This document shows, piece after piece, positions 20-20,418 of a stretch of 21,709 bases of DNA. Within the stretch, counting starts at the first letter, position 1. The number at the start of each line of letters is the position of its first letter. The DNA is from a virus. The notes under the pieces were generated by a model. It searched no databases. It saw nothing but the letters and a program-made list of their open reading frames with translations, and had not been told where the DNA came from. The DNA lies in the IMG/VR virus record IMGVR_UViG_3300025889_001088, positions 1 to 21,709 of that record, one strand, 5' to 3'. The position numbers and the translations under genes are program-made.

Positions 20-64
20 AACCCCGCAACGAAGGCCCTCTCTGATAAGGCGCGGGGGTTTTCC
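20..64 (+). terminator. Terminator-like hairpin at the left edge
   Basis: AACCCCGC (20-27) can pair with GCGGGGGTT (52-60), with one extra G bulged, and the 3' arm runs into a short T-rich stretch (TTTTCCC). A competing pairing is GCGGGG (4-9) with CCCCGC (22-27). This could end transcription of a gene lying left of the window. The loop is long (24 nt) and the T-run is short, so the call is moderate to weak. Confidence 0.35.
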
Positions 65-65
65 C

Positions 66-96
66 TTGACAAGGAGCCGTTTTCAGCGGCTACCCT
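66..96 (+). promoter_or_regulatory. Candidate promoter (TTGACA, TACCCT)
   Basis: A perfect TTGACA sits at 66-71, and TACCCT at 91-96 fits the loose TANNNT -10 pattern with a 19-bp spacer, at the long end of the usual range. An inverted repeat AGCCG (75-79) / CGGCT (87-91) fills the spacer and could be an operator. It would drive the module beginning at 301 through a leader of roughly 200 nt. The -10 is poor, so this is only a candidate. Confidence 0.3.
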
Positions 97-300
97 CAAA
101 GTAAAGACTTGGTTAAGATATTATTAAGAAAACTTAATGATGCAACTTTGTGCAAAAACCCCCCGTTTTTCTGGTTATATGGGGGGAGATAAAGAGGGGG
201 GCAACGAACCCTACCTTCTAGGATTCGGTCTCACACTCAATAAGGGTTCGTATCCAGCCGCTAGGCTGGTTTAGTAAAGGGTTATAGGGAGAAATTAAGA
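97..300 (+). other. Non-coding leader rich in inverted repeats
   Basis: No gene is supported in this stretch. By eye it holds ATTAAG (123-128) / CTTAAT (133-138) around AAAA; AAAAAC (154-159) / GTTTTT (165-170) around CCCCC; the alternative CCCCCC (159-164) / GGGGGG (181-186); a purine tract at 181-201 bounded by two G6 runs; a perfect 9-bp stem 204-212 / 243-251; and CCAGCC (254-259) / GGCTGG (264-269) around GCTA. A GGGAG ribosome binding site at 287-291 serves the gene at 301. The 5' untranslated RNA would therefore be heavily structured. It does not fold as a tRNA. Confidence 0.5.
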
Positions 301-939
301 ATGGCGAAGAGCGAGTACCTCCAGCGCGAGGAGACCGCCAAGAAGCAGCTTGGCAAGAAGGGCGTCCAGAAGCGCGTCAAGCAGCTTCCACGGGCTACCC
401 GTGCCACTGCCCGTGGCCTATTGAGAGAAGTCACTGGGATCGACGTCAGCCGTAAGGGTGTGTCGGTCAGCCCAGAGAGCCTAGCGATGGCCCTGCCTGT
501 AGGAAAAGTTATTAGGGCAGCTAAAGCCCTGAGGGCCGCTGGTAAGGTGGGACAGGCTGCGGCACTTGAGGGACGAGTTGCAGCAAAGACTGCTGGAAAC
601 AAGATCTCAAGCAATATTAACTTCTGGGAAAGAAATTTCAATAACGGGAGATTCCCTGTTAATTCTGATATTCCTGGGAAGATTCGTGGCGCTCAGACAA
701 AAAGATCTGTATCAGAATCAGTATTCCCACGAGGAACTGATCTTGCCAAGCGAGCATTGAAAGCAAAGGCGGAGACTACAACCGCAATTAAAGAGAGTAT
801 GAACTACCAGTTCCCGTTCAATCGAGTTATTAATGAATCAGAAAGAATTGAACGTAAGTATGGTCTGACTATGAGAACAGCAGAAGAAGGACTCAGGCAG
901 GCTGCAAAGCGAGTAAAGCGAAATACTGGTAGTCGCTAA
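301..939 (+). CDS. Hypothetical basic protein, 212 aa
   Basis: I do not recognise this protein. It begins with ATG after a good ribosome binding site (AGGGAG, 9 nt upstream). Residues 1-45 are strongly basic (many Lys and Arg), residues about 60-100 are Ala/Gly/Val-rich with regularly spaced Lys and Arg, and the C-terminal third is helix-prone and again basic, ending in VKRNTGSR. No signal peptide, membrane helix or catalytic motif is visible. It is the first gene after the leader and precedes a cluster of small lysine-rich proteins, so a nucleic-acid-associated or virion role is possible but unproven. Codon choice visibly changes near 600, from GC-rich codons to A/T-ending ones (AAT, ATT, AGA). 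Confidence 0.75.
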   Translation: MAKSEYLQREETAKKQLGKKGVQKRVKQLPRATRATARGLLREVTGIDVSRKGVSVSPESLAMALPVGKVIRAAKALRAAGKVGQAAALEGRVAAKTAGNKISSNINFWERNFNNGRFPVNSDIPGKIRGAQTKRSVSESVFPRGTDLAKRALKAKAETTTAIKESMNYQFPFNRVINESERIERKYGLTMRTAEEGLRQAAKRVKRNTGSR

Positions 940-997
940 AAGTTACAGCGCGACCGTTTTAGTGGGGGATGTAGTTTAAGTCCATTTCGGAGGTAGT

Positions 998-1390
998 ATG
1001 CGGGAGAAACGACTCAAAGACTACCTCGACCGTGCAAAGCGCATCCTCAACTTGAGCCACTGGGAGATTAAGATCTCCTCAGATCCGCCTCCAGATGATG
1101 CTTGGGCCGATGTCGAGGTATCTCAGAACCTTTACGCAGCTACAATCCGCTTCTCCCCTGGTCTCTGGAAGGAAAAACCAGAGGAAATTAGACGGGTGAT
1201 CGCACACGAGCTGATCCATTGCCACTATGCGGGGGTCGAACGCCTGGTGGAAGTGGTCCAGGACTCCCTCGGCACCGCTGCTGGGGAGATCGTGGAGAAG
1301 ATTTGGGACGTAGAGTCCGAGCGGGGAGCTGATTCGCTCTCAACAGCCGTGGCAGAGCTGCTACCACTGCCAACATTTGGAGAGAAATAA
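998..1390 (+). CDS. HExxH zinc metallopeptidase-like protein
   Basis: A 130-aa protein with a zincin-type signature HELIH at residues 70-74 (HExxH, preceded by hydrophobic VIA). Two downstream glutamates, E105 and E107 in the WDVESERG stretch, are candidates for the third zinc ligand. The size and the short N-terminal half with a central HExxH resemble the small phage and prophage metallopeptidase-like proteins of the SprT/ImmA type. Substrate is unknown; processing of a virion or host protein is only inference. The start is ATG after a strong GGAGG (989-993). The stop overlaps the next start as TAATG, suggesting translational coupling. No signal peptide or membrane segment is seen, so it should be cytoplasmic or packaged. 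Confidence 0.75.
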   Translation: MREKRLKDYLDRAKRILNLSHWEIKISSDPPPDDAWADVEVSQNLYAATIRFSPGLWKEKPEEIRRVIAHELIHCHYAGVERLVEVVQDSLGTAAGEIVEKIWDVESERGADSLSTAVAELLPLPTFGEK

Positions 1391-1722
1391 TGCCCAAGAA
1401 GAAGCAATCTTCTGCAGATAAGGCGCTCGTTATTGGAGAAGGACGCAAGCGACTTGCTGGAATTGAAAATTATGCCGTCGGCGTCAACCGTTATATTAGC
1501 CATCTAAACGTTGGAAAGAAATACAACGTCGGCTATAAGGCTACGTGGGGAAAGAACGTCCCATATGAACTGGACACCAAACTTGTGACCTCAAAGAAGT
1601 TTGGCGAGAAGCCGATTACTGGACCGAAGGCGTATAAAAAGGCGATGATGAAGTCAAACGCAATGCCAGGAGATCAGTACGCGCCAACTGGAAAAAAGAA
1701 AACAAATCGAGGAAAGGCATAA
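1390..1722 (+). CDS. Small lysine-rich hypothetical protein, 110 aa
   Basis: Unrecognised. The protein starts [11 protein letters not shown] and ends KKTNRGKA, with basic tails flanking a more mixed centre (residues about 20-70) that contains several Tyr and Gly ([17 protein letters not shown]). It has no membrane helix or catalytic motif. Both ends overlap neighbours in the TAATG arrangement, so it is the first member of a translationally coupled run of four basic proteins (1390-2162). A nucleic-acid-binding or virion-internal role would fit the charge, but nothing in the sequence proves it. Confidence 0.7.
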
Positions 1723-1868
1723 TGCCGTTGAAGAAGGGTTCTAGCCAGAAGACGATCTCCGCGAACATCCGCAAGGAGATGAAGGCGGGCAAGCCACAGA
1801 AGCAAGCGATTGCTATCGCCCTCTCGGCTGCTGGAAAATCCAAAAAGAAGAAGAAAGGGTCACGATAA
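1722..1868 (+). CDS. Small basic protein, DUF6496-like, 48 aa
   Basis: Translation from ATG 1722 gives a 48-residue protein starting [16 protein letters not shown], with [16 protein letters not shown] in the middle and a K5 run before the terminal GSR. The pattern of MPLKKG, then TIS.NI, then a KQA.AIALS.AGK helix is one I associate with a widespread family of short phage and bacterial proteins (DUF6496-like) of unknown function. Thirteen of 48 residues are lysine. Start and stop both overlap neighbours as TAATG. The conserved motif supports it as a real gene despite its length. Confidence 0.7.
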
Positions 1869-2011
1869 TGCCGATGGTCGAAGGTAAGAAGTTCCCATAC
1901 ACGAAGAAGGGCATCGCCGCTGCCAAGAAGGCCCAGGCCAAGCACGAGAAGACTGAGGGCAAGAAGGAGCGCGAGATGGAGTACGGCAAGAAGGGCAAGC
2001 GTGCCAAGTAA
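1868..2011 (+). CDS. Small lysine-rich phage protein, 47 aa
   Basis: ATG at 1868 overlaps the previous stop (TAATG). The product starts [20 protein letters not shown] and continues as an almost uninterrupted charged helix; 14 of 47 residues are lysine. The opening MPxVxGKKFPYTKKG is a motif I recall from many short uncharacterised proteins of aquatic phages, which supports coding. Function is unknown. Its last 11 bases are shared with the next gene, in another frame. Confidence 0.65.
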   Translation: MPMVEGKKFPYTKKGIAAAKKAQAKHEKTEGKKEREMEYGKKGKRAK

Positions 2012-2162
2012 GCCAGGTCTCTACGCCAACATCCACGCCAAGCGCAAGCGGATCGCCGCTGGATCTGGCGAAAAGATGCGTAATCCAGGGAACAAGGGCG
2101 CTCCTACCGCCAAAGCATTTAAGGAATCAGCCAAGACAGCAAAGGGTCGTAAGGGGAAGTAA
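2001..2162 (+). CDS. Small basic phage protein, 53 aa, GTG start
   Basis: A GTG at 2001 opens a frame encoding MPSKPGLYANIHAKRKRIAA, then GEKMRNPGNKGAPTAKAFKE, and ending GRKGK. The opening GLYANIHAKRKRI with a later KMR.PG.KGAPT segment is typical of a short uncharacterised phage protein family (GLYANI.AKR). The start lies inside the preceding gene, with an 11-bp overlap and the purine-rich AAGAAGGG just upstream as ribosome binding site. The stop overlaps the fibre gene as TAATG. There is no in-frame ATG near the conserved start, so GTG is the sensible choice. Eleven of 53 residues are lysine. Function is unknown. Confidence 0.65.
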   Translation: MPSKPGLYANIHAKRKRIAAGSGEKMRNPGNKGAPTAKAFKESAKTAKGRKGK

Positions 2163-3472
2163 TGGCAACATTTAAGTTTGGACGAACGGTCGACATCCAC
2201 TGGAATGGATACGACATTGTCGGTCCAGCGGATACCGTATTCTCTATCCCAGATCAGCTCTATGAGGAGTTCGATGGCGACATTGCCCCAGTAGAGCCGA
2301 CCCTTCAGTGGATTGACACGAACGAGTTCCTCACCCTATCCAACAGCGTCTCCGCGTCAACCCTTTCCGCCACCTTCCCAATCTCTGCGACCACGACGAC
2401 CAGTGGTAAGCTGATCTCCATCGTCTCCACCTCCGCCTCGGACGGATATGTCCTGACGGCAAACGGATCTGGTGGGGTTGCGTGGGAGCCACTTCCGGCC
2501 GATGCGACCGGAATCACAAGCATCATCGGAACCTCACCGATCAGCGCAGCGGTGTCAGGCAGCCAGGCCACAATCTCAATTGATCAGACGCTTATCACCG
2601 CCGGTGCAGCCACCACCGCAGAGGGGTTGCGTACCTACGTAAAGAATACGAGCGGATCTGCAATGACCAAGGGTCAGGCCGTGTATGTTAGCGGTGCAGA
2701 TGGAACAAACGTCACCATCCAACTTGCAACCGCATCTACTGAAGCTGGATCGTCAAAAACTCTTGGAATCCTCTATCAGGGTCTGGCAAACAATGAGTTC
2801 GGATGGGTCGTCGAGAGCGGATACCTTGGCGGGATTGATACGAGTGCCGCAACCGCTGGTGACTCTGTCTGGCTTGGCAATACACCTGGATCGCTGGTGT
2901 TCGGCGCTCCTCCCGCCGAACCAAGCAACTCCGTATATATTGGGGTTGTAGCACGGTCAAATATCAACAACGGCGAGATTCTTGTCAAGGTGCAGAATGG
3001 ATACGAGCTGGATGAACTACACGACGTATTCGTCGGTGGCGTCAGCACGGCCCTTCCGCTTGTCTACAACAGCACATCATCTGGCTGGGTCGCACAGGCG
3101 CTGACCTCAGTCGGGATCGCGGACAACGCGGTCGTCGCAGCAAAGATCGACGCTGGTGCAGTAACATCCGCAAAGATTGCAGATGATGCCGTATTTACGT
3201 CAAAGATTATTGACTCTGCGGTTACATCTTCCAAACTAGCAGATGGATCGGTAGTTGCGGCAAAGATCTCTGCTGGTGCAGTTGGGTCAGCGGCTATCTC
3301 CGCTGGCGCAGTTGGATCTGCTGCAATTGCTTCTGGTTCAGTAAATACGTCGGCAATTAACTCTGGTGCAGCCGCGAGTGGCACCGTCCTCACCGCAAAT
3401 GGAACAGGTGGGGCAACTTTCCAGTCAGCAGCGGCTGCTGGCTTCAATCCATTCTTAACAGTGGGGATGTAA
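2162..3472 (+). CDS. Tail-fibre / receptor-binding appendage protein
   Basis: A 436-aa beta-rich protein (Ser, Thr, Ala, Gly, Val). Residues 1-60 may form the virion-attachment part. A VLTANGSGGVAWEP motif near residue 96 recurs near the C-terminus as VLTANGTGGATFQ; this is a common phage fibre motif. Residues about 160-295 (YVKN.SGS...KGQAVYV, ..TLGILYQGLA, ..VKVQNGYELDELHDV) match a domain I recall from phage fibre proteins. Residues 319-408 are nine tandem 10-residue repeats (see the repeat entry), consistent with a trimeric fibrous shaft. The likely role is host recognition at the tail or capsid. The following two genes look like further parts of the same apparatus. Confidence 0.75.
   Translation: MATFKFGRTVDIHWNGYDIVGPADTVFSIPDQLYEEFDGDIAPVEPTLQWIDTNEFLTLSNSVSASTLSATFPISATTTTSGKLISIVSTSASDGYVLTANGSGGVAWEPLPADATGITSIIGTSPISAAVSGSQATISIDQTLITAGAATTAEGLRTYVKNTSGSAMTKGQAVYVSGADGTNVTIQLATASTEAGSSKTLGILYQGLANNEFGWVVESGYLGGIDTSAATAGDSVWLGNTPGSLVFGAPPAEPSNSVYIGVVARSNINNGEILVKVQNGYELDELHDVFVGGVSTALPLVYNSTSSGWVAQALTSVGIADNAVVAAKIDAGAVTSAKIADDAVFTSKIIDSAVTSSKLADGSVVAAKISAGAVGSAAISAGAVGSAAIASGSVNTSAINSGAAASGTVLTANGTGGATFQSAAAAGFNPFLTVGM
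3116..3385 (+). repeat. Nine 30-bp (10-aa) tandem fibre repeats
   Basis: In the fibre frame the sequence reads as nine consecutive decapeptides of the form I-A-D/A-G/D-A-V-x-x-x-K/A, from IADNAVVAAK through IDAGAVTSAK, IADDAVFTSK and LADGSVVAAK to INSGAAASGT. Two adjacent units (ISAGAVGSAA) are identical in protein. The strict 10-residue period without gaps is typical of fibrous phage shafts. The DNA copies differ at synonymous positions, so the array is kept by selection on the protein rather than being a recent duplication, apart possibly from the identical pair. Confidence 0.85.
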
Positions 3473-3802
3473 ATGGCTACAAATTATAAGGTCCTAGGTC
3501 AAGTGAAACCAGCGGCGGATACACTAACGACAGTATACACCTGCCCAGCAGCGACTGAGGCAGTTGTGGCAAATATCTGCATTACGAATCTTTCTAGTGC
3601 CCCTGCTGCATTTAGGATTGCAATTCAACCAAACGGAGATGCAATCAACGACAAGCACTATATTGTGTATGACGCAGGTATAGACTCATATTCTTATGAA
3701 TTTCTAACAATGCCGATTACACTTGACGCTAACGATGTCATCTCTGTGTATTCAACCACAGGAGCAGTCTCATTTAATGTATTTGGATCGGAGATTTCAT
3801 AA
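3473..3802 (+). CDS. Small beta-rich virion-associated protein
   Basis: A 109-aa protein starting MATNYKVLGQVKPAADTLTTV, with CPAATEAVVANICITNLSSA, then FRIAIQPNGD and ending VFGSEIS. Short proteins opening YKVLGQ..P.A.TLT..YT.P and alternating beta-strands are common next to fibre genes in environmental phages, where they are presumed appendage or fibre-tip components. No catalytic motif is seen. Its ATG shares no base with the fibre stop, which ends at 3472, and the stop overlaps the next gene (TAATG). Codons are noticeably more A/T-ending than in the terminase and portal genes. Function is inferred from family resemblance and context only. Confidence 0.65.
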   Translation: MATNYKVLGQVKPAADTLTTVYTCPAATEAVVANICITNLSSAPAAFRIAIQPNGDAINDKHYIVYDAGIDSYSYEFLTMPITLDANDVISVYSTTGAVSFNVFGSEIS

Positions 3803-5091
3803 TGTCTGTTGGACGCAATCACCTTACACGAGCGCCTTTTTATAAGTTTGGATCAGTTCCTATCCACGGAAGTGGACTTCGCGGTTACATCAGGGATCTT
3901 GCTGCATCGCCAACGTGTATTATCGCAGTCGGAGCAAATACAGCAACTAGAACATCATCAGGTGGCGGATCAAGGATGTGGACTAGCACAGACGGAAAGG
4001 TGTGGACGGCCGTCTCCACAACATCGTTTGGAAATTCCAGCGTCGATTTTATTGCATATGGAAACAACACATTTGTTGCACTCGGTGGAGACAATCTCAT
4101 TGCAACATCACCAGGTACAAGTGGCACATCTTGGACACAGAGAACAAGTCCAGTAGCAGGATCAAGTCCCTGGAATTACATTACATTCCAAAACGGTCTT
4201 TTTGTTATCCAAAATAATGCTTCATACACATTGTATTATTCAAGTGATGGAATTACGTGGTCAACAGGACCAAACCCAAATAATGCAATTGGTAAATTCC
4301 ACCAAGATTTTAGTCGCGCTGGAGGAATATTCTACATAGATAGTAACGACTCAACAAGCAGATGGTTGGTGGCTGTTGGGAACGAATATAATACTACGGC
4401 TGGATTTACTCATTTTATCGTCCTTGACGCTATGAGCAGCACAGGAAGTAGAACAGATATTACGGCTTCTGGGTTTGCATCTTTTGCTCCATATTGGGAA
4501 CCATCCGTAAGAAAATTTATTGTTGCAACATCACCAAATTCAGCCACAGCAAATGCTGGATTTCACAACCTTGTTGCCGTTAATTATCAAACTGCATCTT
4601 TAAATCAGTCTCCAGATGTTGGTTCGCAAGGACAAAGATTCTTTCCAGTTCTCGCTCCAAGAGAAATTATCCAGCAATACACAACAGCAGGCACTATTAT
4701 GAGCAATCATTTGACAACGATGAGAATTAATGCGACTCCAACTGCCGCATTGAGAAAGTCAGTATATTTCTTTAACGATGGATGGTGGAACTGCATTTTT
4801 ATTAATCAAGGTGACCAGGTTAACAACGGGTATGATAATCATTATATTAATGTTGCGTTCCATAATGACACAACGGAGTATGCGTCTGACATCCAAAGAT
4901 TTGGAGGCGGCAAAGGAAGTTCTGAATCACAGGTCACCTCAACGGATCTTAACAATCTTACTTATGTTGCACAGGTTCAATTTAAGGATTTAGCAATTAT
5001 AATGCCAAATGCCACGAATGGTAATGCTGTTGGAAGATCGTACCTTCTAGGAAAGCGTTCAATTAAGGGCGTCACGACGTTCCTCCCATAA
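3802..5091 (+). CDS. Asp-box / propeller-like adhesion protein
   Basis: A 429-aa protein with Asp-box-like motifs (S-x-D-G-x-x-W) at residues 62-68 (STDGKVW) and 147-153 (SSDGITW) and a degenerate one ending at W111. Each follows a stretch of hydrophobic strands (FVALGG, LFVIQN), the arrangement seen in sialidase/BNR-type beta-propellers. The C-terminal half (about 230-429) has no motif I recognise. The position directly after two fibre-type genes makes a receptor-binding or glycan-binding tail protein the best guess. No obvious sialidase Arg triad is identified, so enzymatic activity is not claimed. The DNA is clearly more A/T-rich than the flanking packaging genes, as often seen for variable host-range genes. 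Confidence 0.65.
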   Translation: MSVGRNHLTRAPFYKFGSVPIHGSGLRGYIRDLAASPTCIIAVGANTATRTSSGGGSRMWTSTDGKVWTAVSTTSFGNSSVDFIAYGNNTFVALGGDNLIATSPGTSGTSWTQRTSPVAGSSPWNYITFQNGLFVIQNNASYTLYYSSDGITWSTGPNPNNAIGKFHQDFSRAGGIFYIDSNDSTSRWLVAVGNEYNTTAGFTHFIVLDAMSSTGSRTDITASGFASFAPYWEPSVRKFIVATSPNSATANAGFHNLVAVNYQTASLNQSPDVGSQGQRFFPVLAPREIIQQYTTAGTIMSNHLTTMRINATPTAALRKSVYFFNDGWWNCIFINQGDQVNNGYDNHYINVAFHNDTTEYASDIQRFGGGKGSSESQVTSTDLNNLTYVAQVQFKDLAIIMPNATNGNAVGRSYLLGKRSIKGVTTFLP

Positions 5092-5105
5092 AGGATTGAT
5101 ATAAT

Positions 5106-5285
5106 ATGTATACCTATGAAATAAACGGATTGTTCGCAATCATTTACCTTAACGGAACAGAGGTAAACAGGGTTGGTCCGTGGGACCACGATAACCCAAA
5201 CGGACCTGGGATCTGGGCAGAAAACTTTTGTATTGAAAGCAACAAGCCAAAACCTGATCCAGCACCAGAAGAGACGCCTGAGTGA
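5106..5285 (+). CDS. Small hypothetical protein, 59 aa
   Basis: An ATG at 5106, preceded by AAGGA about 10 nt upstream, opens a frame for MYTYEINGLFAIIYLNGTEV, then NRVGPWDHDNPNGPGIWAEN and an acidic, Pro-rich tail (KPKPDPAPEETPE). A GPW...IWA pattern is one I associate with short ORFs beside phage fibre genes, but the function is unknown. The stop overlaps the next start (GTGA), which supports expression as part of the operon. It has a mixed hydrophobic N-terminus but no true membrane helix. Confidence 0.6.
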   Translation: MYTYEINGLFAIIYLNGTEVNRVGPWDHDNPNGPGIWAENFCIESNKPKPDPAPEETPE

Positions 5286-5770
5286 CCGAGCTGGCACCAG
5301 TCCTCACGGGGTGCCACGTCTGCCGTAGCCCCTTCGTCGAGACCATCAATAAGAAGATGCGCGACGGGGTGCCAGACATCAAGATCTCCGAGTGGCTTGA
5401 CGAGAATGCGCAGTACATCAGCCGCATCACCCTCGGCAACCACAAGCGAAAGCACCTCACTGAGCCGCACGAGCGCCTACGACAGCAGGCCGTCAAGGTA
5501 ATGCAGAAGCAGGCGAAGACCATCAAGGCAACGGGCGACCTTGCCTCGCTAGTCCGCGACCACGTTCACGCGGCAGTTGAGCAGGGATTAATGACACCGA
5601 CGCTGGCAGAGGGCCTGCGGGCGCAGGAGATGATTGACCGCCGTCAGGAGAAGGGAGCAGACCGAGAGGTTGCCCTTACGCTCGCTGGAATTTTAGGTGG
5701 CGGGACCACGTACCAAGTAATCGAAGCTACTGAAATAAAACCAATTTCGGGCGGAGAAATGGAACCGTGA
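5282..5770 (+). CDS. Zn-finger/HTH protein, candidate small terminase
   Basis: A 162-aa protein starting at GTG within a GTGA overlap. C11 and C14 (CHVC), together with H54 and H58 (HKRKH), form a plausible Cys2-His2 zinc site around a helix-turn-helix-like stretch (residues about 30-52: IKISEWLDEN..YISRITLGNH). Small phage proteins with this C..C, HTH and H...H layout are seen at packaging loci and have been taken as small terminase subunits or DNA-binding regulators. The rest (65-140) is helical and suitable for oligomerisation. If it is the small terminase it would recognise the packaging site and load the large subunit encoded 3.4 kb downstream, with lysis genes in between. A transcription regulator is the alternative. 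Confidence 0.5.
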   Translation: MTELAPVLTGCHVCRSPFVETINKKMRDGVPDIKISEWLDENAQYISRITLGNHKRKHLTEPHERLRQQAVKVMQKQAKTIKATGDLASLVRDHVHAAVEQGLMTPTLAEGLRAQEMIDRRQEKGADREVALTLAGILGGGTTYQVIEATEIKPISGGEMEP

Positions 5771-6841
5771 TTGCACCGCTTAACCGCAATTATCGTACTG
5801 GCCCTCGTCACATTCTTCCCGTTCAGCATCGCGGCGGCACTGGAAAGTCCCGACGACTGGACGCTGGAGACCGACTCGAATGGAACCTTGACCCTATCGG
5901 AGGACGGCTCTTTTACACTCACTGGAGCGGACAACCCGCCACCAGGGTCAATCACGCAGAACGCCGAAACAAAGTACACCACGCTCGTGGTGGAAGATCA
6001 GGCAATCGGCTTCACCTGGGCCTACTCTACGACCGACTCATCGTATTGGGATACACCGTACTACACAAACTCGGACTCGTGGATCCCGTTCGTGTCGGAA
6101 CTTACGCAGACGGCGAGCGGGTATATCGAGTTGCAGTTGATCGCAGGAAGCCTCTTCGGCTTCAAGATCGTCAGCAAGGACTCGTGCTGCGGGGCAGGAA
6201 ATCTGACCATCGGCGGGATCGTCACACCGACACCTACGCCGAGCCCGACTGCGGAGCCTAGCGTTGAGCCCACACCGACTCCAACGCCTGAGCCGAGTCA
6301 AGAGCCGACGCCGACTCCGACTCCTGAACCTACTCCAGAGCCGACTCCAGACCCAACACCTGAGCCGACTCCTGAACCTACACCAGAACCCACGCCTGAA
6401 CCTACAGTAGAGCCAGAACCGACAGATGAGCCAGAGCCGATTGCCGAACCCGAACCGTCGGAGGAACCGTCAGAAGAGCCTGAGACGACTCCTGACCCTA
6501 CTGACGAGCCTAGCATTGAGCCTGAGCCTAGTGTTGAGCCTACTGACGATCCTGACACCGATCTGCCAACCGTAGAGGAAGCAGTCGGGGAGGCAATTGA
6601 ATCAATAAGTGAGGCATTTGAGAATATCCTTGCGATCACGGAAATCGGTAGTGATCTTAGTGACGAGGAAAAAGAAGGGTCACAACCAGTAGCGGTGGCG
6701 ATTATCTCAAGCCAAATCGCAAGCTCCGCAGCAGCCTCGGCAGTCCGATCAATGGGCGGCAGTAGTGGCGGCGGTGGGGGCGGCGGTGGCGGCGGGATGG
6801 ACAAGCCCCGCAGCAGCCGAAAGGGGATTCGCCGTGATTAA
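5771..6841 (+). CDS. Sec-signal protein with long TP/EP repeat
   Basis: A 356-aa protein of unknown function. The start is TTG directly after the previous stop; no ATG in the frame would keep the signal peptide. Residues 1-23 form a classic signal peptide (basic start, hydrophobic core, cleavage near AAALES). Residues 24-150 form a compact beta-rich domain with [13 protein letters not shown] and a CC pair (DSCCGAG). Residues about 152-266 are a low-complexity Thr/Pro/Glu array. Then comes a probable amphipathic helix ([20 protein letters not shown]), an Ala/Ser-rich helix, a run of ten glycines, and a basic tail ([12 protein letters not shown]). The layout suggests an exported protein spanning or extending through a thick cell wall. 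It lies just upstream of the lysis genes and overlaps the next gene by 8 bp. A role in lysis, surface exclusion or adhesion is speculation. Confidence 0.65.
6224..6570 (+). repeat. Low-complexity TP/EP-coding repeat
   Basis: This stretch codes about 115 residues made almost only of Thr, Pro, Glu, Asp, Ser and Val in two- to six-residue units ([13 protein letters not shown]). The DNA is a degenerate array of CCNACN and GAGCC units, with varied third positions. It also gives a long artefactual open frame on the opposite strand (Gly/Ser/Val repeat), which is not a gene. Such arrays typically form extended wall-spanning linkers and are prone to length change by slippage. Confidence 0.85.
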
Positions 6842-7004
6842 GAACGTTATCCTTGACCTCATTAGCGGAGCGTGGACTGTACTCGGTCTTCTCTTCGCAG
6901 TGGTCGTCCTGCCAGAAGGGCAGACGCAATCAACGATGGCAACACTGTTTATTCTACTCACAATCGGATGGCTTGTCACAGGGCCACTACGCTGGAAGGA
7001 ATAA
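6834..7004 (+). CDS. Small two-helix membrane protein, holin-like
   Basis: A 56-aa protein starting at GTG 6834, chosen because AAGGGG lies 7 nt upstream; a longer upstream start at 6765 would sit wholly inside the preceding gene's Gly-rich coding. It has two hydrophobic segments, about residues 4-26 ([20 protein letters not shown]) and 35-51 ([16 protein letters not shown]), separated by a short polar turn (LPEGQTQST), and a basic end (LRWKE). This is the size and topology of a small holin or antiholin, but I recognise no family. It lies immediately before the lysin gene and, with the r1t-like holin after it, brackets the lysin. Confidence 0.6.
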
Positions 7005-7005
7005 G

Positions 7006-7614
7006 ATGAAGTTCAAAGTCAAGTCACAACTAGACCACGTAGAGAAGGGCGGCATCCTTGATGACTGCGGCCCGTCCAGCACGGCAGCCGCCGTGGCGTG
7101 GGCGTCCAAGTACACCGTTGACCCGTCCGCTGGCGATGGCATCAAGGCGAAGGCGAAGGCAACAGGGTTCGTGGAGAAGGAAGGCGTGTCCGACAACGGC
7201 TCGTCCCTCATTGACTTGATTAAGACCGCCAAGGAGATGGGCGCCAAGGCACGATACGCCAAGTCGTGGGACGACGTCGTCCTCTCGGCGCACCGTGGGG
7301 CTGGTCTCATCGTGTGGGTACAGCAGGCTGTTGACTACCCGCCAGTGGAGATCAGCGAGTGGCACAAGAAGTGGCAGAACTACTGGCTAAAGAAGGACAA
7401 GAAGCATATTGTGGTCGGGTATGGTCATATGACGGCAGCGGGTTGGGACGCTGTTGACGGATGGCAGTGGTCGTGTCCCACGAGGAGCGGCAAGGGCAAG
7501 GAGAAGTTCGGGGTCTCCGTGACCGAGGAGCAGCTCAAGCAGATCGCATCAAGCAAGAAGAAACTCACTGGCGGCGCGGCCCACAAGCACGTCGTCATCG
7601 TTGAGTGGAAGTAA
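7006..7614 (+). CDS. C39-like cysteine peptidase, probable endolysin
   Basis: A 202-aa protein starting at ATG 7006, one base past the previous stop. Residues 19-23 read DDCGP, the hallmark of C39-type papain-like peptidases; C21 is the expected nucleophile. The downstream VVGYGHMTAAGWDAVDGW (about 136-153) would supply the catalytic His (H141), and an Asp such as D148 or D151 could complete the triad. Actinophage LysA proteins often carry such a domain to cut peptidoglycan stem or cross-bridge peptides. No signal peptide is present, consistent with release through a holin. The C-terminal ~45 residues are basic (KKKLTGGAAHKH) and could bind the wall. Direct neighbours on both sides encode holin-like membrane proteins. 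A virion-associated or processing peptidase is the alternative. Confidence 0.65.
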   Translation: MKFKVKSQLDHVEKGGILDDCGPSSTAAAVAWASKYTVDPSAGDGIKAKAKATGFVEKEGVSDNGSSLIDLIKTAKEMGAKARYAKSWDDVVLSAHRGAGLIVWVQQAVDYPPVEISEWHKKWQNYWLKKDKKHIVVGYGHMTAAGWDAVDGWQWSCPTRSGKGKEKFGVSVTEEQLKQIASSKKKLTGGAAHKHVVIVEWK

Positions 7615-7623
7615 GGAGTCCCA

Positions 7624-7917
7624 ATGTATAACGACATCAAGGCAGGCATTCGCTGGGTCATCGACAACACGGGTGTTGACGAGGCGCTCATCGAGTTCGG
7701 ACGAACATTTATCACGGTATCCATCTCCGTTGCCCTCGGCTTGGGCATCCCGCTTCTGGACATCAGCGGCGGCGACTTCCGCACCATCATCTCGGCTGGT
7801 CTCGCATCTGGACTCCAGATCTTGATCAAGTTCCTTGACCCGAAGAACACGCAGTTCGGCATCAAGGAGAAGACGCCAGAGGACAAGGCTGCGGCAGAGA
7901 AGCAGTTTGACATCTGA
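7624..7917 (+). CDS. r1t-like holin
   Basis: A 97-aa protein with two hydrophobic segments, about residues 22-44 (ALIEFGRTFITVSISVALGL) and 52-71 (RTIISAGLASGLQILIKFL), joined by LDISGGDF and followed by a charged tail (KEKTPEDKAAAEKQ). The pattern of R-T-F in helix 1, a L-D-x-x-x-x-D-F/W turn and a Gly/Ala/Leu-rich helix 2 matches the r1t-type holin family common in actinophages and lactococcal phages. It would pore the inner membrane to release the C39-like lysin encoded 10 bp upstream. AAGGAG lies just before the start. The last 11 bp overlap the next gene. Confidence 0.75.
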   Translation: MYNDIKAGIRWVIDNTGVDEALIEFGRTFITVSISVALGLGIPLLDISGGDFRTIISAGLASGLQILIKFLDPKNTQFGIKEKTPEDKAAAEKQFDI

Positions 7918-8365
7918 TCGTTGGATCTACGTTGGGGGGACGTTTGACCTATTCCACTACGGACACGCTCGATTCCTTGAGCAGTGTTCCAAATACGGAA
8001 AGGTCATCGTCGCCATCAACACCGACGACTTCTGCGAGCGGTACAAGCGAAAGCCAGTCCTGACGCTGGGAGAGCGGATTGAGTCCGTCGCAGCGTGCAA
8101 GTGGGCAGACGAGGTCATCGTCAACATCGGGGACGAAGACAGCGGCGTCACGATTGACACGATCAAGGACAAGAAGGTCACCCACATCGCCCACGGGGAT
8201 GACTGGACTGGCAACTCGCTCATTGAGCAGCTTGGCATCAGCCAGGAGTGGCTAGACGAGCGGGGTATCTCAATGCTCTACGTTTCATACACCAAAGGTA
8301 TTTCTACAAGCGACATCATCGGGAGAATCAATGGCGACGTTCACGGCGGTTGTCACTGCGCATAA
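7907..8365 (+). CDS. TagD-like cytidylyltransferase
   Basis: A 152-aa nucleotidyltransferase-superfamily protein. Residues 9-20 (VGGTFDLFHYGH) contain the GxFDxxHxGH nucleotide-binding signature with H17 and H20. GDDW at 97-100 and GISTSDIIGRI at 131-141 match the later conserved motifs of glycerol-3-phosphate cytidylyltransferases (TagD) and relatives acting on choline- or ethanolamine-phosphate. It should join CMP from CTP to a phosphorylated polyol or amino alcohol, making a CDP-activated donor; the actual substrate cannot be read here. The start is TTG 7907, the only start codon close to the conserved N-terminus, overlapping the holin by 11 bp. It overlaps the following glycosyltransferase by 35 bp, so the two are coupled and probably work together. 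Confidence 0.8.
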   Translation: MTSDRWIYVGGTFDLFHYGHARFLEQCSKYGKVIVAINTDDFCERYKRKPVLTLGERIESVAACKWADEVIVNIGDEDSGVTIDTIKDKKVTHIAHGDDWTGNSLIEQLGISQEWLDERGISMLYVSYTKGISTSDIIGRINGDVHGGCHCA

Positions 8366-8879
8366 CGACGAGGCTGGGCTTCGCCGCGTGCTAGGCGACC
8401 TCCTGGCGTGGCAGGTACGTAAGCCAGACGAGATCATTGCGCTGGCGTCAGAGATTGACCTGACCAGCCTACGACACGAGTTCCCTTCGGTCATCTTCCA
8501 CGAAGAGCCGAACAAGGAGGACTGGGGCCACGATAAGCGTGCCAAGGGTCTTGACCTTGCCACTTCAGACTATATCGGCTGGTTTAATCACGACGACTCT
8601 TACAACCCAGACTACATCTTAGAGATGATGTGCCACGCCGAAGAAGGCAATGATGTGGTATACTGTGGGTGGTCCAGAGGACACAACCCAGAGTTCAGGT
8701 CAGGAAATTCCACGTCTGGAAATTACATCGTCAGGACGCAGGTTGGCCGAGACGCTGGATATAGTGACCGTCACTATGAAGCTGACGGCACATTCATCAA
8801 CCGCATTGCGGCACTGACCACTTTCATCAAGTTTGTCAACCGCGTCCTGTATTACCACAATGAGGTAAAGTATGCCTAA
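8331..8879 (+). CDS. GT2-family glycosyltransferase
   Basis: A 182-aa protein with a GT-A (family 2-like) fold signature. The N-terminus FTAVVTAHNDEAGLRRVLGD is the nucleotide-sugar-binding start, and WFNHDDSYNPDY (residues 84-95, D88/D89) is the DxD-like metal site after a typical ATSDYIG strand. YEADGTFINRI (149-159) sits where the acceptor-side catalytic acid and the arginine motif usually lie. It is short for the family, essentially just the catalytic core. ATG at 8331 has GGGAG upstream (8321-8325). The partner cytidylyltransferase overlaps its 5' end and the DUF6321-like gene overlaps its 3' end. It may glycosylate a virion protein or a host surface polymer; the acceptor is unknown. Confidence 0.75.
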   Translation: MATFTAVVTAHNDEAGLRRVLGDLLAWQVRKPDEIIALASEIDLTSLRHEFPSVIFHEEPNKEDWGHDKRAKGLDLATSDYIGWFNHDDSYNPDYILEMMCHAEEGNDVVYCGWSRGHNPEFRSGNSTSGNYIVRTQVGRDAGYSDRHYEADGTFINRIAALTTFIKFVNRVLYYHNEVKYA

Positions 8880-9180
8880 GACAGCAGCGTGGCAACGCAA
8901 AGAAGGTCAGAATCCAAAGGGCGGGCTAAACGCTCGCGGTCGGGCTTCGTACAAGGCACAGACTGGTGGCACATTGAAGGCCCCAGTCAAGAGCGGCGAC
9001 AATCCACGTCGCGCTTCGTTCCTTGCTCGTATGGGAAATATGCCAGGTCCTGAACGCGACGAGAAGGGGCGCCCGACCCGACTCCTTCTCTCGCTTCAGG
9101 CTTGGGGTGCTAGTAGCAAGGCGGATGCTCGCACAAAAGCCAAGAATATGTCAGATCGCCTCAAGGCGAAGAAGGCTTGA
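8872..9180 (+). CDS. DUF6321-like basic phage protein
   Basis: A 102-aa basic protein containing TAAWQRKEGQNPKGGLNARG near the N-terminus, then GGTLKAPVKSGDNPRRASFL, RMGNMPGPERDEKGRPTRLL, and LQAWGASSKADARTKAKNM near the end. I recall this conserved set as the DUF6321 family of phage proteins, often encoded right next to the terminase large subunit. The ATG lies inside the end of the glycosyltransferase gene, and the stop overlaps the terminase start as TTGA. Function is unknown. Its charge and position allow a packaging-accessory or DNA-binding role; it is a rival candidate for the small terminase. Confidence 0.7.
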   Translation: MPKTAAWQRKEGQNPKGGLNARGRASYKAQTGGTLKAPVKSGDNPRRASFLARMGNMPGPERDEKGRPTRLLLSLQAWGASSKADARTKAKNMSDRLKAKKA

Positions 9181-10676
9181 AGCCGCTCGATAACGATATT
9201 GCCAGAGACCTTGCTCGCGGTCGGAATGACATCGCATTCTTTGCAGAGCGATGGCTTGGCGTAAGGGGGAACCCTGGGCAGATCAGATGGTGGGAAGCGT
9301 GCGCAGAGCGTGACGATACTGGTTATCGACCGAAATACATCACGACGGTCGTCTCCGCTGGGAACCGTGCAGGAAAGACTCTTGCTATGGCTGTTGTGTG
9401 CCTCCATCACGCGCTATACAAACTAGGGATTGCCAGCCCAGACGCCTCTGACCCACAGTCCTACAAGCGGTGGAGCGACACTCCATACGAGTGGTACCAC
9501 GTAGGAATCCAGCAGGAGACCGCAGAACTGGTCTTCCGCGAGATTGAGACCTTGCTAGGCGGAAGCCATCCAGCGCAGAAGGGTCGCGGATGTGCTATCA
9601 TCAAAGAACTTGGCAAGGTCATTGATACCCAGAAACGGTATCGCGGTGAGTATGCGTGGGTTAAGTTCAACCCCGTGGTCGGCGGCGCAAGCATCCACTT
9701 CCGTACTACCCAGGACCGAGCCAAGGCACTCCTGGGTAAGGATATGAACGGCATCTCGTTTGACGAGGCGGCCTTTGAGCCGCACCTGCTGATGATCTAC
9801 CAAGAGGTGCTCAACCTCCGCCGACTCTCCACTGGTGGTCCACTCCACTTCATCGGGACACCGAGCGAGGGCATCAACGACTACGCGGAACTCTGGGAGA
9901 AGGGCAACCTAGACAACCCAGCGCGAGATGAGAAGTTCATCAGCTTCCGACTCTCCACCCGCGACAACATCGGCTACGGACTGACGCAGGAAAACTTTGA
10001 TGACGTCGTCCGCCAGCAGGCAGAGTACCTGATCCCACAGAACATTGACGGGTACTTCATCGAGGCGCGAGACGCCTTCTTCTGGAGTCAGTCAGTCCTC
10101 GCGCTGTACAAGACGCTTGAGGATGACGTCAAGCCAGTTAGAAACCACCGCTACATCCAAGGCGTAGACCCAGGAATCTCGCACGATGCGACGTGGGCCA
10201 TCACGCTGGACATCACCAGCCGCAACAAGATTCGCGGCGTGCGGATCAGGAAGCGAAGCGGCAAGCAGAGCATCTCCGCAGTGGTGAATATGGTCCGCGA
10301 GGGTCACCTGCTCTACAGCCAAGACGGCGCCTTCTGCACCACCATCGTGGATTCCACTGGTCTAGGTGGCAGGCTCTTCCAGCAGGAGTTCTCAATGATC
10401 CGCCCGCTCCGAGGGTTTGACTTCGGCGGCACGAAGGCGAAGAAGGTGGAACTCCTCAATGACCTCAAGGCAGTGATTGACAAAGGTCAACTGGAACTCC
10501 CAATGGGCGGACCGTGGGATGAACTGAGGAGACAACTCCTGATTTATAAACTAGACGACAAGAAATTAGAACAAGATGCAGTAATGGCATTGGCAATCGC
10601 GGTGCGACACGCACTGAGAAATCCTGAGAAGGGCGTGGAGAATCCCACCTTCACCTATTTTGGAGTGAGTGATTAA
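9177..10676 (+). CDS. terL: Terminase large subunit
   Basis: A 499-aa packaging motor with ATPase and nuclease domains. Walker A is AGNRAGKT at residues 61-68 (K67, T68) and Walker B is GISFDEA at 192-198 (D196, E197). The coupling motif is FIGTPS at 225-230. The RNase H-like nuclease has D331 (IQGVDPGISHDATW), D392 (TTIVDSTGLGG) and D467 (EQDAVMALAI) as likely metal ligands. Length is normal for the family. It drives DNA into the prohead through the portal encoded immediately downstream (TAATG overlap) and cuts the genome. The start is TTG in a TTGA overlap, with AAGAAGG upstream; no ATG lies before Walker A at a sensible position, so TTG is preferred. Confidence 0.95.
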   Translation: MKPLDNDIARDLARGRNDIAFFAERWLGVRGNPGQIRWWEACAERDDTGYRPKYITTVVSAGNRAGKTLAMAVVCLHHALYKLGIASPDASDPQSYKRWSDTPYEWYHVGIQQETAELVFREIETLLGGSHPAQKGRGCAIIKELGKVIDTQKRYRGEYAWVKFNPVVGGASIHFRTTQDRAKALLGKDMNGISFDEAAFEPHLLMIYQEVLNLRRLSTGGPLHFIGTPSEGINDYAELWEKGNLDNPARDEKFISFRLSTRDNIGYGLTQENFDDVVRQQAEYLIPQNIDGYFIEARDAFFWSQSVLALYKTLEDDVKPVRNHRYIQGVDPGISHDATWAITLDITSRNKIRGVRIRKRSGKQSISAVVNMVREGHLLYSQDGAFCTTIVDSTGLGGRLFQQEFSMIRPLRGFDFGGTKAKKVELLNDLKAVIDKGQLELPMGGPWDELRRQLLIYKLDDKKLEQDAVMALAIAVRHALRNPEKGVENPTFTYFGVSD

Positions 10677-12976
10677 TGGCTAAGGTACGTAAGATTCCAG
10701 CGGCGTTCCAGGATACACGAGGTGTACCAGCGCAGTACACCACTGACCCAGAGGTCGCTAAGCCAGAACAGATTGCCGCCATCGGCAAGGCCATCGACAA
10801 GGCGCGACGACTACAGAAGGGCGCGACAATCCGCGACCGCGTTGATCGAACCGCCCCACTTGCGACATCACCAGCAAAGCTCAATAGCACCAGCGGAAGC
10901 ACCCTCCGCTCACCCGCTGGTGCGCCTAACGCACCGCTCCCACGAACTGCACCAGTGGCAAATGCCCCTGTTGCAATGAACGCCACCTCCAAGGGCAGCC
11001 GACGCGCCCCTGGGGGTTTTTCTGCTGGTCTTCGTGGCGGTCAGGGAACCCTTCGAATCCAGCCAAACGTAGAGAAGCTGTCTGCATCGGAAGCCGCATC
11101 CCTAAAGATGCTGGAGTCCTCACTGGTTGCGCAGGAACTTGATCCAAAGCAGAACGACGACTACACCTTGCTCCAAGAGATCCTCGGTCGCAAGCAGTTG
11201 GTTGACCCAGAGCAGAACCGACTCAAGGCGCTGTTCCGCCGTATGGACAACCTCTACCATCCAGAGACAATGACGCTCGGTGGTGCCGACCACTGGTCAG
11301 AAGACCCAAGCGCACGGCTTGCTGGCCGCGCTCACGTGTCGGTCAATATCCACCACGCCTACGTCCAGATCCCTGCCGCCATTCAGGCGGTGCGACCTGT
11401 CATCAACTATGTCCCAACGGGAAGCACAGAGGAAGAGCGACAAGCCGCCGCACTACGCGAGCGGCTATACTTCCGTTGGTGGGATTCCAACGAGATGGAC
11501 CTTCTGAACGAGCAGGCTGCACTCCTCAAGGAATTGTACGGACACACTGCCGCCAAGGTCTACTGGGATCCGATTGAGCGCGTGCCAAAGATCTCCATCA
11601 TTGAGCGACCTGAGAACCTTTACCTCGGATTCGGCAACAGCGACTACAACCGCCTAGACTGGGCGCTCTACACCTATGGTATGTCGCCACAGTCAATCCA
11701 AGAGGACTACGGCGTTGATGTAATCCCCGTCAAGCAGGGAGAGAAGTGGTTCCCATATACGAGTCGTGGCAGCCACGCTGACCCAATCGGCAACGTGTGG
11801 GCGAACGCCTTTGAGCGCAATCCACTTCGCCGCGAGACCGCCTACGAGCAGATGCAGGTGGAAGTCTACGATTACTGGTACAAGGTTCCAAAGGGTCCAG
11901 GCAAAGCACCTCTGGTGTACAACGCCATCTACGTAGGTAATACGCTCGTCAAGAATGACGCGCACCCAGAGTACGGAGGACAGATTCCGTACATCCACCT
12001 CCCGAACGGCAAGATCCCAGGTAGCCCATACGGCAAGCCCGCTCTGTACGATCCTGAGCAGCTCCTCCGCGAGAAGGACGAGCGGGTCACTGCGATGGCG
12101 CAGATGATCCAGTCCATCGTTGGTGGGCAGATGTGGCAGTTGGTCGGCGCCGAGGCTCCTGACGAGGTACCACCTAACGCGCTTCCAAAGCCTGGTCGCG
12201 TGGCAACCCCTGGACCTGGCAACGAACTCCGCGCTATCCAGCCGTTCATTCCACAGTTCCAGATCGAAGCATACGTCGCCCGCATTGACCGCGAGTTGAC
12301 GGTGGCAACTGGACTCAATGACTTGCTTCTTGGCCTTGCGCCAGCGCAGGTGTTGGGTTCGTCGCGTGCCATCGCCGCGTTGATTGCCAACTACGAGTCC
12401 CGCCTTGCCCCAAAGCGCAAGGTGTTCTACTCGTGGATGAAGAAGATCTGGGAAATGTGCGCCCGCATCTGGGAGGCAAAGGACCCAGCCGTCAAGTCGA
12501 TCATTGCTGGTGAATATCGCATTGAGATCGTCGCCCCAGAACTGACGCCACGAGACACGCTGGAACTCGCAAGCACCGCGATCAACCTCGTACAGAACCG
12601 CATCTGGAGCGCAGAACGCGCAATGGATCGCGTTGGCGTGGAAGATCCGATTGGCGAGAAGGAACTCATCCGCGACGAGCAGACGGATGCAACCCTCAAC
12701 CCTGCCGCTGTTGCCACGATGGCAAACGTGATGGGAACATTCCAGCAAATGCAAATGGCAAATCAGCAACAGATGCAACAGCAAATGATGATTACACAAG
12801 AACAGGCCGCGAACGCACAGCGAACGCTTCAGTCTGGCGTTCCTGGAAGTCAGTCGCTAAACCAACCAGAGAATCAAGCGCAGTTGCCGCCTGAAGCAAC
12901 GGCTGCCAATGCGGCGGCGCCAGGAGAGGAAAACCTCGTCCCAGCGCCGACGGGAACGAATGAGGTACAAGCCTAA
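10676..12976 (+). CDS. Portal protein
   Basis: A 766-aa protein, large for a portal. Residues 1-about 135 are a low-complexity basic, Pro/Ala/Arg-rich extension (GSTLRSPAGAPNAPLPRT and similar). The portal fold follows, with an alpha-beta clip or wing around residues 200-480 and the helical VATGLNDLLLGLAPAQVLGS segment (about 540-560) typical of the stem and crown region of long portals. The C-terminus is Gln/Met-rich (FQQMQMANQQQMQQQMM, about 686-703), then disordered and Pro/Ala-rich. It would form the dodecameric vertex ring for DNA entry and exit. Position directly after the terminase and size support the call; individual residues cannot prove it. Confidence 0.85.
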   Translation: MAKVRKIPAAFQDTRGVPAQYTTDPEVAKPEQIAAIGKAIDKARRLQKGATIRDRVDRTAPLATSPAKLNSTSGSTLRSPAGAPNAPLPRTAPVANAPVAMNATSKGSRRAPGGFSAGLRGGQGTLRIQPNVEKLSASEAASLKMLESSLVAQELDPKQNDDYTLLQEILGRKQLVDPEQNRLKALFRRMDNLYHPETMTLGGADHWSEDPSARLAGRAHVSVNIHHAYVQIPAAIQAVRPVINYVPTGSTEEERQAAALRERLYFRWWDSNEMDLLNEQAALLKELYGHTAAKVYWDPIERVPKISIIERPENLYLGFGNSDYNRLDWALYTYGMSPQSIQEDYGVDVIPVKQGEKWFPYTSRGSHADPIGNVWANAFERNPLRRETAYEQMQVEVYDYWYKVPKGPGKAPLVYNAIYVGNTLVKNDAHPEYGGQIPYIHLPNGKIPGSPYGKPALYDPEQLLREKDERVTAMAQMIQSIVGGQMWQLVGAEAPDEVPPNALPKPGRVATPGPGNELRAIQPFIPQFQIEAYVARIDRELTVATGLNDLLLGLAPAQVLGSSRAIAALIANYESRLAPKRKVFYSWMKKIWEMCARIWEAKDPAVKSIIAGEYRIEIVAPELTPRDTLELASTAINLVQNRIWSAERAMDRVGVEDPIGEKELIRDEQTDATLNPAAVATMANVMGTFQQMQMANQQQMQQQMMITQEQAANAQRTLQSGVPGSQSLNQPENQAQLPPEATAANAAAPGEENLVPAPTGTNEVQA

Positions 12977-19787: not shown

Positions 19788-19838
19788 ATATATAACCCTG
19801 ACATTGGGTCGGGGAAAGAAATAAAAAGGAGAAATGCT
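19788..19838 (+). promoter_or_regulatory. Short intergenic spacer with hairpin and RBS
   Basis: TATAAC at 19791-19796 resembles a -10 box but has no -35 at normal spacing. CCCTGAC (19796-19802) pairs with GTCGGGG (19808-19814) through seven pairs, including one G-U, around ATTGG; no T-run follows. AAGGAG at 19826-19831 sets the GTG start of the scaffold gene. It is one of the few gaps in this otherwise overlapping operon and comes right before the capsid pair, so it may tune expression by a new promoter or an RNA processing hairpin. Confidence 0.3.
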
Positions 19839-20402
19839 GTGGCTGAAGAAGTCGTGAACAGCGTCGCACCTGAGTCGCAGGAGTCCACCGCGCCAGTCGC
19901 GGAGGTCGCTGCTGCCACTGAGAGCGAGGCAGACGTCACCACTTGGAAGAAGCGTCTAGCAGGTAAGGATCAGGCGCTCACCGCTACTAAGAAGGAACTT
20001 GATGAGATCAAGTCCAGGGCGGAAGAACTCGCTCGCTGGAAGGCAGAGCAAGAGCAGGCTCAAATGACTGAGTTCGAGAAGGCGCAAGCCAAGATTCGAG
20101 AACTTGAGCAGAAGGCCGCTGCTGCCGAGCAAGCCGCGAAGGAGGAGCGTCTCGCACGGGAATACCCACTCGCATATCAGTTCCTGAAGGACACTGGTGG
20201 TCTGGATGAAGTTGGCAAGGCTGCTGCCTTGGAAAACTTTGTCAAGCAGGCTGCCGCTGTGGCCTCAGTCCCTGTTGAGTCGGAACCAGCGCCAGTGGAT
20301 CCAAATAATGCGCGTCGGGCAACTGCCGCGCCTGTTGAAAAGCCCAACTCTAAGAGCATCTCTGATGCGCTGAAGGCGTTGGGAAATCCATTCGCTGAGT
20401 AA
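19839..20402 (+). CDS. Capsid scaffolding protein
   Basis: A 187-aa acidic, helical protein starting at GTG 19839, set by AAGGAG 7 nt upstream; a nearby ATG at 19834 leads to an early stop. Residues about 1-30 are Ala/Glu/Val-rich and disordered. Residues 35-110 form a heptad-like coiled coil rich in Lys, Glu, Gln and Ala (KELDEIKSRAEELARWKAEQ). The tail has NARRATAAP followed by SKSISDALKALGNPFAE, a C-terminal helix of the kind scaffolds use to bind coat protein. Its place directly before the major capsid gene is diagnostic. It would assemble the procapsid and leave before or during packaging. No protease gene is seen next to it, so how it is removed is unknown. Confidence 0.8.
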   Translation: MAEEVVNSVAPESQESTAPVAEVAAATESEADVTTWKKRLAGKDQALTATKKELDEIKSRAEELARWKAEQEQAQMTEFEKAQAKIRELEQKAAAAEQAAKEERLAREYPLAYQFLKDTGGLDEVGKAAALENFVKQAAAVASVPVESEPAPVDPNNARRATAAPVEKPNSKSISDALKALGNPFAE

Positions 20403-20418
20403 GAAGGAGTAGCATACA

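Follow-up and report, generated by a model that had tools for sequence, protein, structure and literature searches.

The window, by which we mean the whole 21,709-base viral record analysed here, carries podovirus-like genes, and the stretch of non-coding DNA at its left end holds an element that is real and, as far as can be judged, undescribed. Two stems of this element, designated P1 and P3, are shown by compensatory changes among its relatives to be paired, and the comparative record indicates that the stretch is kept by evolution in part for its paired shape. The interpretation that we favour, with slightly better than even confidence, is that a regulated late promoter stands here, and that behind it comes a structured 5' leader of the late mRNA that may include a pseudoknot. 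An earlier sequence-only reading of this DNA had pointed to several structures, some of them competing pairings, at a module border and had suggested a regulatory RNA, a packaging site or a replication element; its individual claims are taken up below where the evidence bears on them. The coordinates of the features are collected in Table 1.

Table 1. Features of the window, with positions counted from its first base
Feature	Position	Strand	Basis or remark
Direct repeats TGATAAGG (43-50) and TGACAAGG (67-74)	43-74	+	upstream block conserved in relatives (alignment)
AT-rich palindrome TTAAGAAAACTTAA	124-137	n/a	left half almost always kept, right half disrupted in some relatives
Dyad TGCAACTTTGTGCA, TGY-N8-RCA	141-154	n/a	presumed protein-binding site
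C6 run in gap-free promoter-like block	159-164	+	CCCTCC in L062, GGGCCTG in L065 type
Promoter-like element TGGTTATAT	172-180	+	putative promoter, inferred
Purine mirror tract G6, AGA, TAA, AGA, G6	181-201	+	conserved in relatives
P1, 5' arm CGAACCC, pairs with 244-250	205-211	+	covariation
Pyrimidine tract CCTTCT	214-219	+	possible partner of second G-run, candidate pseudoknot helix; duplex calculation
GTCTC	228-232	+	possible partner of GAGAT 186-190, candidate pseudoknot helix
P1, 3' arm GGGTTCG	244-250	+	covariation
Hairpin P3, CCAGCC-GCTA-GGCTGG	254-269	+	covariation
AGGGAGA, likely ribosome-binding site of ORF at 301	286-292	+	sequence; AGGAG in relatives at same place
First ORF after leader, small basic protein	301-939	+	differs between relatives; without family match
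Terminase large subunit	9177-10676		
Portal	10676-12976		weak match
Major head protein	20419-21390		

Genomic context and relatives of the leader

A comparison with 50,697 named phage records gave no match for the terminase and portal of the window, and the head protein finds only distant matches in named phages, all below 60% identity. Public viral contigs contain 343 terminase relatives of the clade, which is a group of unclassified, uncultivated podovirus-like phages with genomes of about 41 kb. A scan of SprT-like proteins against a genome collection, made in search of a host, gave no match. Despite the lack of a named match for terminase and portal, a short lysine-rich coding stretch at 2002-2170 is about 70-75% identical at the DNA level to cyanophage genes, the counterpart of which, for example in S-CBP3, lies between the photosystem II D1 gene and a capsid gene. 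Sugar-related genes occur in the late region both of the window (nucleotidyltransferase-like and glycosyltransferase matches, 7835-8879) and of the related genome G012 (dTDP-rhamnose-type and epimerase genes, L039 116-1791 and 4413-4976).

The element occupies an operon border, as the sequence-only reading had surmised: in L002 and G012, the two relatives with ORF listings, it is flanked by minus-strand ORFs on the left and by plus-strand late genes on the right, and in the window it adjoins the 5' end of a run of late genes on the same strand. The first late gene is variable, while the leader on its 5' side and the SprT-like gene on its 3' side (998-1390 in the window, where the match is below the Pfam cut-off) are kept in the window, L002, L007-L037 and L065; in L078 the SprT-like gene follows the leader directly. 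Feedback control by a single gene product is therefore unlikely.

When the ORF at 301-939 was used as a query, three related contigs were found, the leaders of which are strikingly alike. A pattern derived from the G-rich core retrieved 31 contigs, with a selection bias, as it requires GGTTATATGGGGG and uninterrupted G-runs. The neighbouring SprT-like gene was also used as a query that makes no use of the core; this search, in which GGTTATATGGGGG was not demanded, added L062, L065-L067, L078 and L081. Relatives were taken from the best 80 of 121 in the SprT-based search, the best 80 of the 343 terminase relatives and the best 80 of 112 in another search for relatives. Altogether, 28 distinct full versions of the leader core were recovered from public viral contigs, the partial copies in L016, L037 and L061 not being counted. 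The core is present in a single copy, at one mismatch or less, in every one of the 31 records that the pattern search retrieved, some of which are fragments.

The leader is far better conserved than the four-fold sites of the terminase gene, with 70-94% identity in its aligned columns compared with 29-67% at those sites in 11 genome pairs (for instance, 0.81 vs 0.42 for the window and G012, and 0.77 vs 0.30 for the window and L150). A model of the element, R1, run over 78 sources, placed it in the window's clade and in the L067 type, with one weak match in L133 (15.3 bits). In pieces taken from three genomes, scores of 116-150 bits were obtained for the known copies, and the runners-up had 11.9 and 9.1 bits. 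Across 78 further sister-clade sources, found via the L100 terminase, the best score was 11.7 bits, although the region need not be present in all of these, and L308-L310, found by an upstream pattern, had no match to the element. The L065-L067/L150 group appears to be a mosaic phage: its SprT-like gene groups with that of L023 on the tree, its terminase is only 70% identical to that of the window, and its leader is the most divergent.

Two stems re-paired through both-sided changes

Both stems that the sequence-only reading had drawn here are present in the window, namely a perfect 9-bp stem (204-212/243-251, ACGAACCCT/AGGGTTCGT), of which 7 of the 9 pairs are kept in most relatives and constitute P1, and the CCAGCC (254-259) and GGCTGG (264-269) arms of P3. 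Compensatory changes, which that reading had named as the check on its structures, are found for both of these and for neither of the pairings that it had proposed for the C6 run. In the alignment used for the counts (A3, 27 rows, L065 omitted), P1 and P3 have standard pairs in 98.6% of cells, all five unpaired cells being accounted for by row L013, which is one base out in P1; 8 of the 13 pairs have changed on both sides. None of 500 shuffles reached the observed pairing, the number of both-sided pairs or the covariation score, while the number of pair types was matched by 27 of the 500. Shifting the partner by one column lowers the pairing to about 40%. Another alignment (A6) does not include L017, L028, L036 and L065, has L007 misaligned and was not used for counts.

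Exact strings tell the same story. The P1 arms are complementary in 28/28 versions across four sequence types, CGAACTC (16), CGAACCC (9), GATCCAGTG (2) and ACCTCCCCG (1), and so are those of P3 in all 28 across the types CTGG (17), CCAG (10) and CCCTCC (1). In a 27-row tree built from the SprT-like gene, which the contig of L020 lacks, P1 needs four changes per arm and P3 six per arm. L007 and L026 share an identical promoter block and have wholly different, yet perfectly paired, P1 stems. Since the P3 types travel with their flanking bases, recombination probably explains some of the recurrences and may inflate the number of changes.

It is this conservation, together with the re-pairing of the two stems, that sets the region apart from chance, rather than the folding of the single sequence. 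The plus strand of 97-300 folds at chance level (z = -1.33, 20/200 shuffles as good) and the predicted transcript 181-290, folded without a pseudoknot, no better (z = +0.45, 131/200); of the two strands, the minus strand gives the stronger fold (z = -2.58, 2/200).

RNA leader or DNA site

Once the misplaced row L013 is set aside, G-U pairs are absent from P1 and P3, and the pair counts thus do not separate an RNA stem from a DNA inverted repeat. We considered that the stems and repeats might be recognised on the genome itself, as a site for packaging or replication, a reading that we hold to be unlikely. The absence of G-U pairs suits it, as do a change in the sign of the GC skew near the element in the three genomes profiled and the fact that, of 32 records (the window plus 31 related contigs), 13 have a contig end within 320 bp of the element, where about one is expected. 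These ends, however, are spread to either side of it over several hundred bases, so that assembly breaks fit at least as well as a cut site, and we read the clustering as breakage of assemblies at G/C-runs or in sequence shared between strains. Moreover, the skew merely tracks the strand of the genes, G012 closes on itself elsewhere, with a 127-bp overlap of its ends, and the arms of P1 are about 30 bases apart, which is unusual for a DNA site and makes RNA the likelier form of P1.

If the leader acts as RNA, it could also yield a discrete small RNA that works in trans, for example in packaging. Its compact structured core and its persistence while the next gene changes are compatible with such a role, but a terminator-like site is absent after P3, and a ribosome-binding site and an ORF follow directly 3' of the leader; we regard this possibility as quite improbable.

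A promoter-like block at fixed spacing

To the left of the stems, the dyad has TGT/ACA arms in 17 of the 28 versions, TGC/GCA arms in 7 and imperfect arms in 4. Its distance to TGGTTATAT is 17 bp in 28/28, in a block that is free of gaps even though the C-run within it shifts, which is what would be expected from recognition of DNA by a polymerase or an activator. A scan of the plus strand from 1 to 1000 for sigma-70 sites (-35 and -10 hexamers at a spacing of 16-18 bp) found none, and because good hexamers are absent the putative promoter probably depends on an activator. Activator sites are commonly centred about 40 bp upstream of the start of transcription; if TTATAT serves as the -10 element, the start would fall at about 187-189 and the dyad centre about 40 bp upstream of it.

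A T7-like promoter at GGTTATAGGGAGA (280-292) was also considered and discarded. The window contains a single exact copy of this string, and relatives have AGGAG at that place, on which ground we read it as a ribosome-binding site. The left block shares with T7-like promoters a TATA-like string with G-rich sequence and AGA after it; such promoters, however, would be expected in many copies per genome, and here there is one copy in 31/31 records, and the single-subunit RNA polymerase family PF00940 was found in 0/10 genomes, in a search in which the control genomes gave no match either.

Two further features lie to the left of the leader in relatives. In L039 (14569-14587) and others, TTGGCACGATTTATGCC is found upstream of the leader; it resembles a sigma-54 promoter in the 12-bp distance between its GG and GC, reads as an inverted repeat as well and is altered in some relatives. 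Repeated short hairpins of the form GACAAG-N4-CTTGTC are present in the intergenic stretch of L039 (14526-14564) and L045 (6641-6678), and the contig of the window begins after this hairpin part.

That a structured RNA heads a long run of genes on the same strand invites comparison with antitermination. Leader RNAs with paired stems head the phage transcript in the HK022 put system, and the leader could, in the same manner, make RNA polymerase resistant to terminators. The likeness lies in the paired stems at the head of the (predicted) transcript, and the empty search for a single-subunit phage polymerase, silent control included, would agree with it. Here, however, there is no excess of terminators to bypass: positions 900-20800 contain 12 terminator-like sites, two of them on the plus strand, compared with 19.6 in shuffles. 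For the late genes of the window this is weak evidence against antitermination. We give this reading little credence.

The G-runs and the C-run

The purine tract GGGGGGAGA-TAA-AGAGGGGGG at 181-201, described previously as close to a mirror repeat capable of forming a triplex, is present and conserved. Exact GnAGA/AGAGn arms occur in 26 of the 28 versions (25 by script, L020 by eye), L062 and L065 being the deviating ones, and the tract is a purine mirror repeat of the kind seen in H-DNA, with arms of only 8-9 bases. The two G-runs are equal in length in 27/28 (5/5 in 19 versions and 6/6 in 8, with 8/6 in the remaining one). Each run needs four changes on the SprT-like gene tree, and the three independent pairs that lie on well-supported branches each show the two runs changing in the same way, a number too small for significance.

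The C6 run (159-164) and the G6 runs (181-186 and 196-201) are likewise where the sequence-only reading had placed them, and its proposal was that the first pairs alternately with the other two, which in a single RNA would form a switch. Most of the 28 versions have the C-run and both G-runs, RNAalifold pairs the C-run with the second G-run, and the equal lengths of the G-runs could reflect a shared partner. Yet no pair has changed on both sides in either register, the length of the C-run (2 to 7) does not track that of the G-runs, and the most divergent type, that of L065, represented by four contigs identical here, has no C-run. The pair counts and the L065 type thus lead us to reject a conserved C6/G6 helix in spite of the RNAalifold drawing; the constant 17-bp spacing around the C-run also suggests that it functions as DNA, and we regard the switch as highly improbable.

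The coupled lengths of the G-runs might instead mean that the two form one device, a two-state switch that couples the start of the late promoter to the folding of the leader, with the runs at equivalent positions in a triple-stranded or alternating structure. It could take the form either of a purine mirror triplex in the DNA of the start site or of runs that trade pyrimidine partners in the nascent RNA. We put this forward as a decidedly speculative and rather improbable idea; if true, it would be a mechanism not described for phage late genes, and the joint changes in length in any case make the structures that G-tracts adopt at a promoter a concrete question.

A candidate pseudoknot and a model of the leader

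The P1 loop contains a pyrimidine tract of 5-7 bases in 28/28 versions, the core of which varies by C/T only, as would be expected opposite G. Within the loop, an RTCT string has a first base that suits the base after the first AGA, the combinations being C/G in 17 versions, T/G in 5, T/A in 4 and A/G in 1, with one not placed. Duplex calculations show a weak tendency to pair the same segments (mean z of -1.54 for 23 distinct loops; leaving the first G-run out of the transcript gives -1.11). A second helix crossing P1, which would give an H-type pseudoknot, is possible.

In the interpretation that we favour, of a regulated promoter and a structured leader, the stretch from about 124 to 180 would act as DNA, with the dyad and TGGTTATAT, held at fixed spacing, forming a promoter that probably needs an activator. 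Transcription would probably begin within the first G-run or immediately beyond it (about 181-189), and the right part would be a 5' untranslated leader that folds as RNA into P1 and P3, followed by the ribosome-binding site. Pairing between the G-tracts and two segments of the P1 loop, the pyrimidine tract and GTCTC, may cross P1. The most likely role of such a leader would be to shield the 5' end and to govern how a long late mRNA, with a first gene that varies between phages, is translated or decays. The element probably marks the start of late transcription in these genomes, and it offers a conserved, testable control element for a clade without named terminase or portal matches.

Comparison with known elements and other sequences

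The leader pseudoknot of T4 gene 32 mediates feedback by the gene's own product. The present element resembles it in having a candidate pseudoknot close to the 5' end, in the leader of a phage mRNA; the differences are that here the first gene varies between relatives and that the pseudoknot is only a candidate. Also near in kind are manA and wcaG, structured RNAs that comparative genomics has revealed in metagenomes and phages, upstream of genes, and that adjoin metabolic genes in T4-like cyanophages (PMC2864571). They share with the leader the character of a conserved structured phage RNA upstream of genes (PMC2864571) and differ in that the leader precedes late structural genes, belongs to another phage clade and has no Rfam family.

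No part of the window matches Rfam 15 at gathering thresholds, and a relaxed search of positions 1-320 returned only CRISPR-DR20, at 15.8 bits vs the 42 required. The open-licence literature searched contained no description of the element. It is best regarded as a clade-restricted example of a broadly familiar type of element, and the leader RNA, if confirmed, would constitute a new structured RNA family.

Two groups of sequences resembling the leader were set aside. A blastn search of 97-300 against named phages matched two records of Bacillus phage phiAGATE over one 37-base stretch, which at an E-value of 0.01 was judged to be due to chance, and twelve contigs retrieved with a degenerate pattern (L133-L137, L141 and L143-L148) have different flanks. 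Eight of the latter (L133, L134, L136, L137, L143, L145, L146 and L148) contain an 11-bp inverted repeat, GTTCTTGTAGC/GCTACAAGAAC, around TGGTTAAAAGGGGGGATTACAGGGGGG, that is, a hairpin with two G6 runs in its loop, in phage contigs whose flanking sequences are unrelated to the leader.
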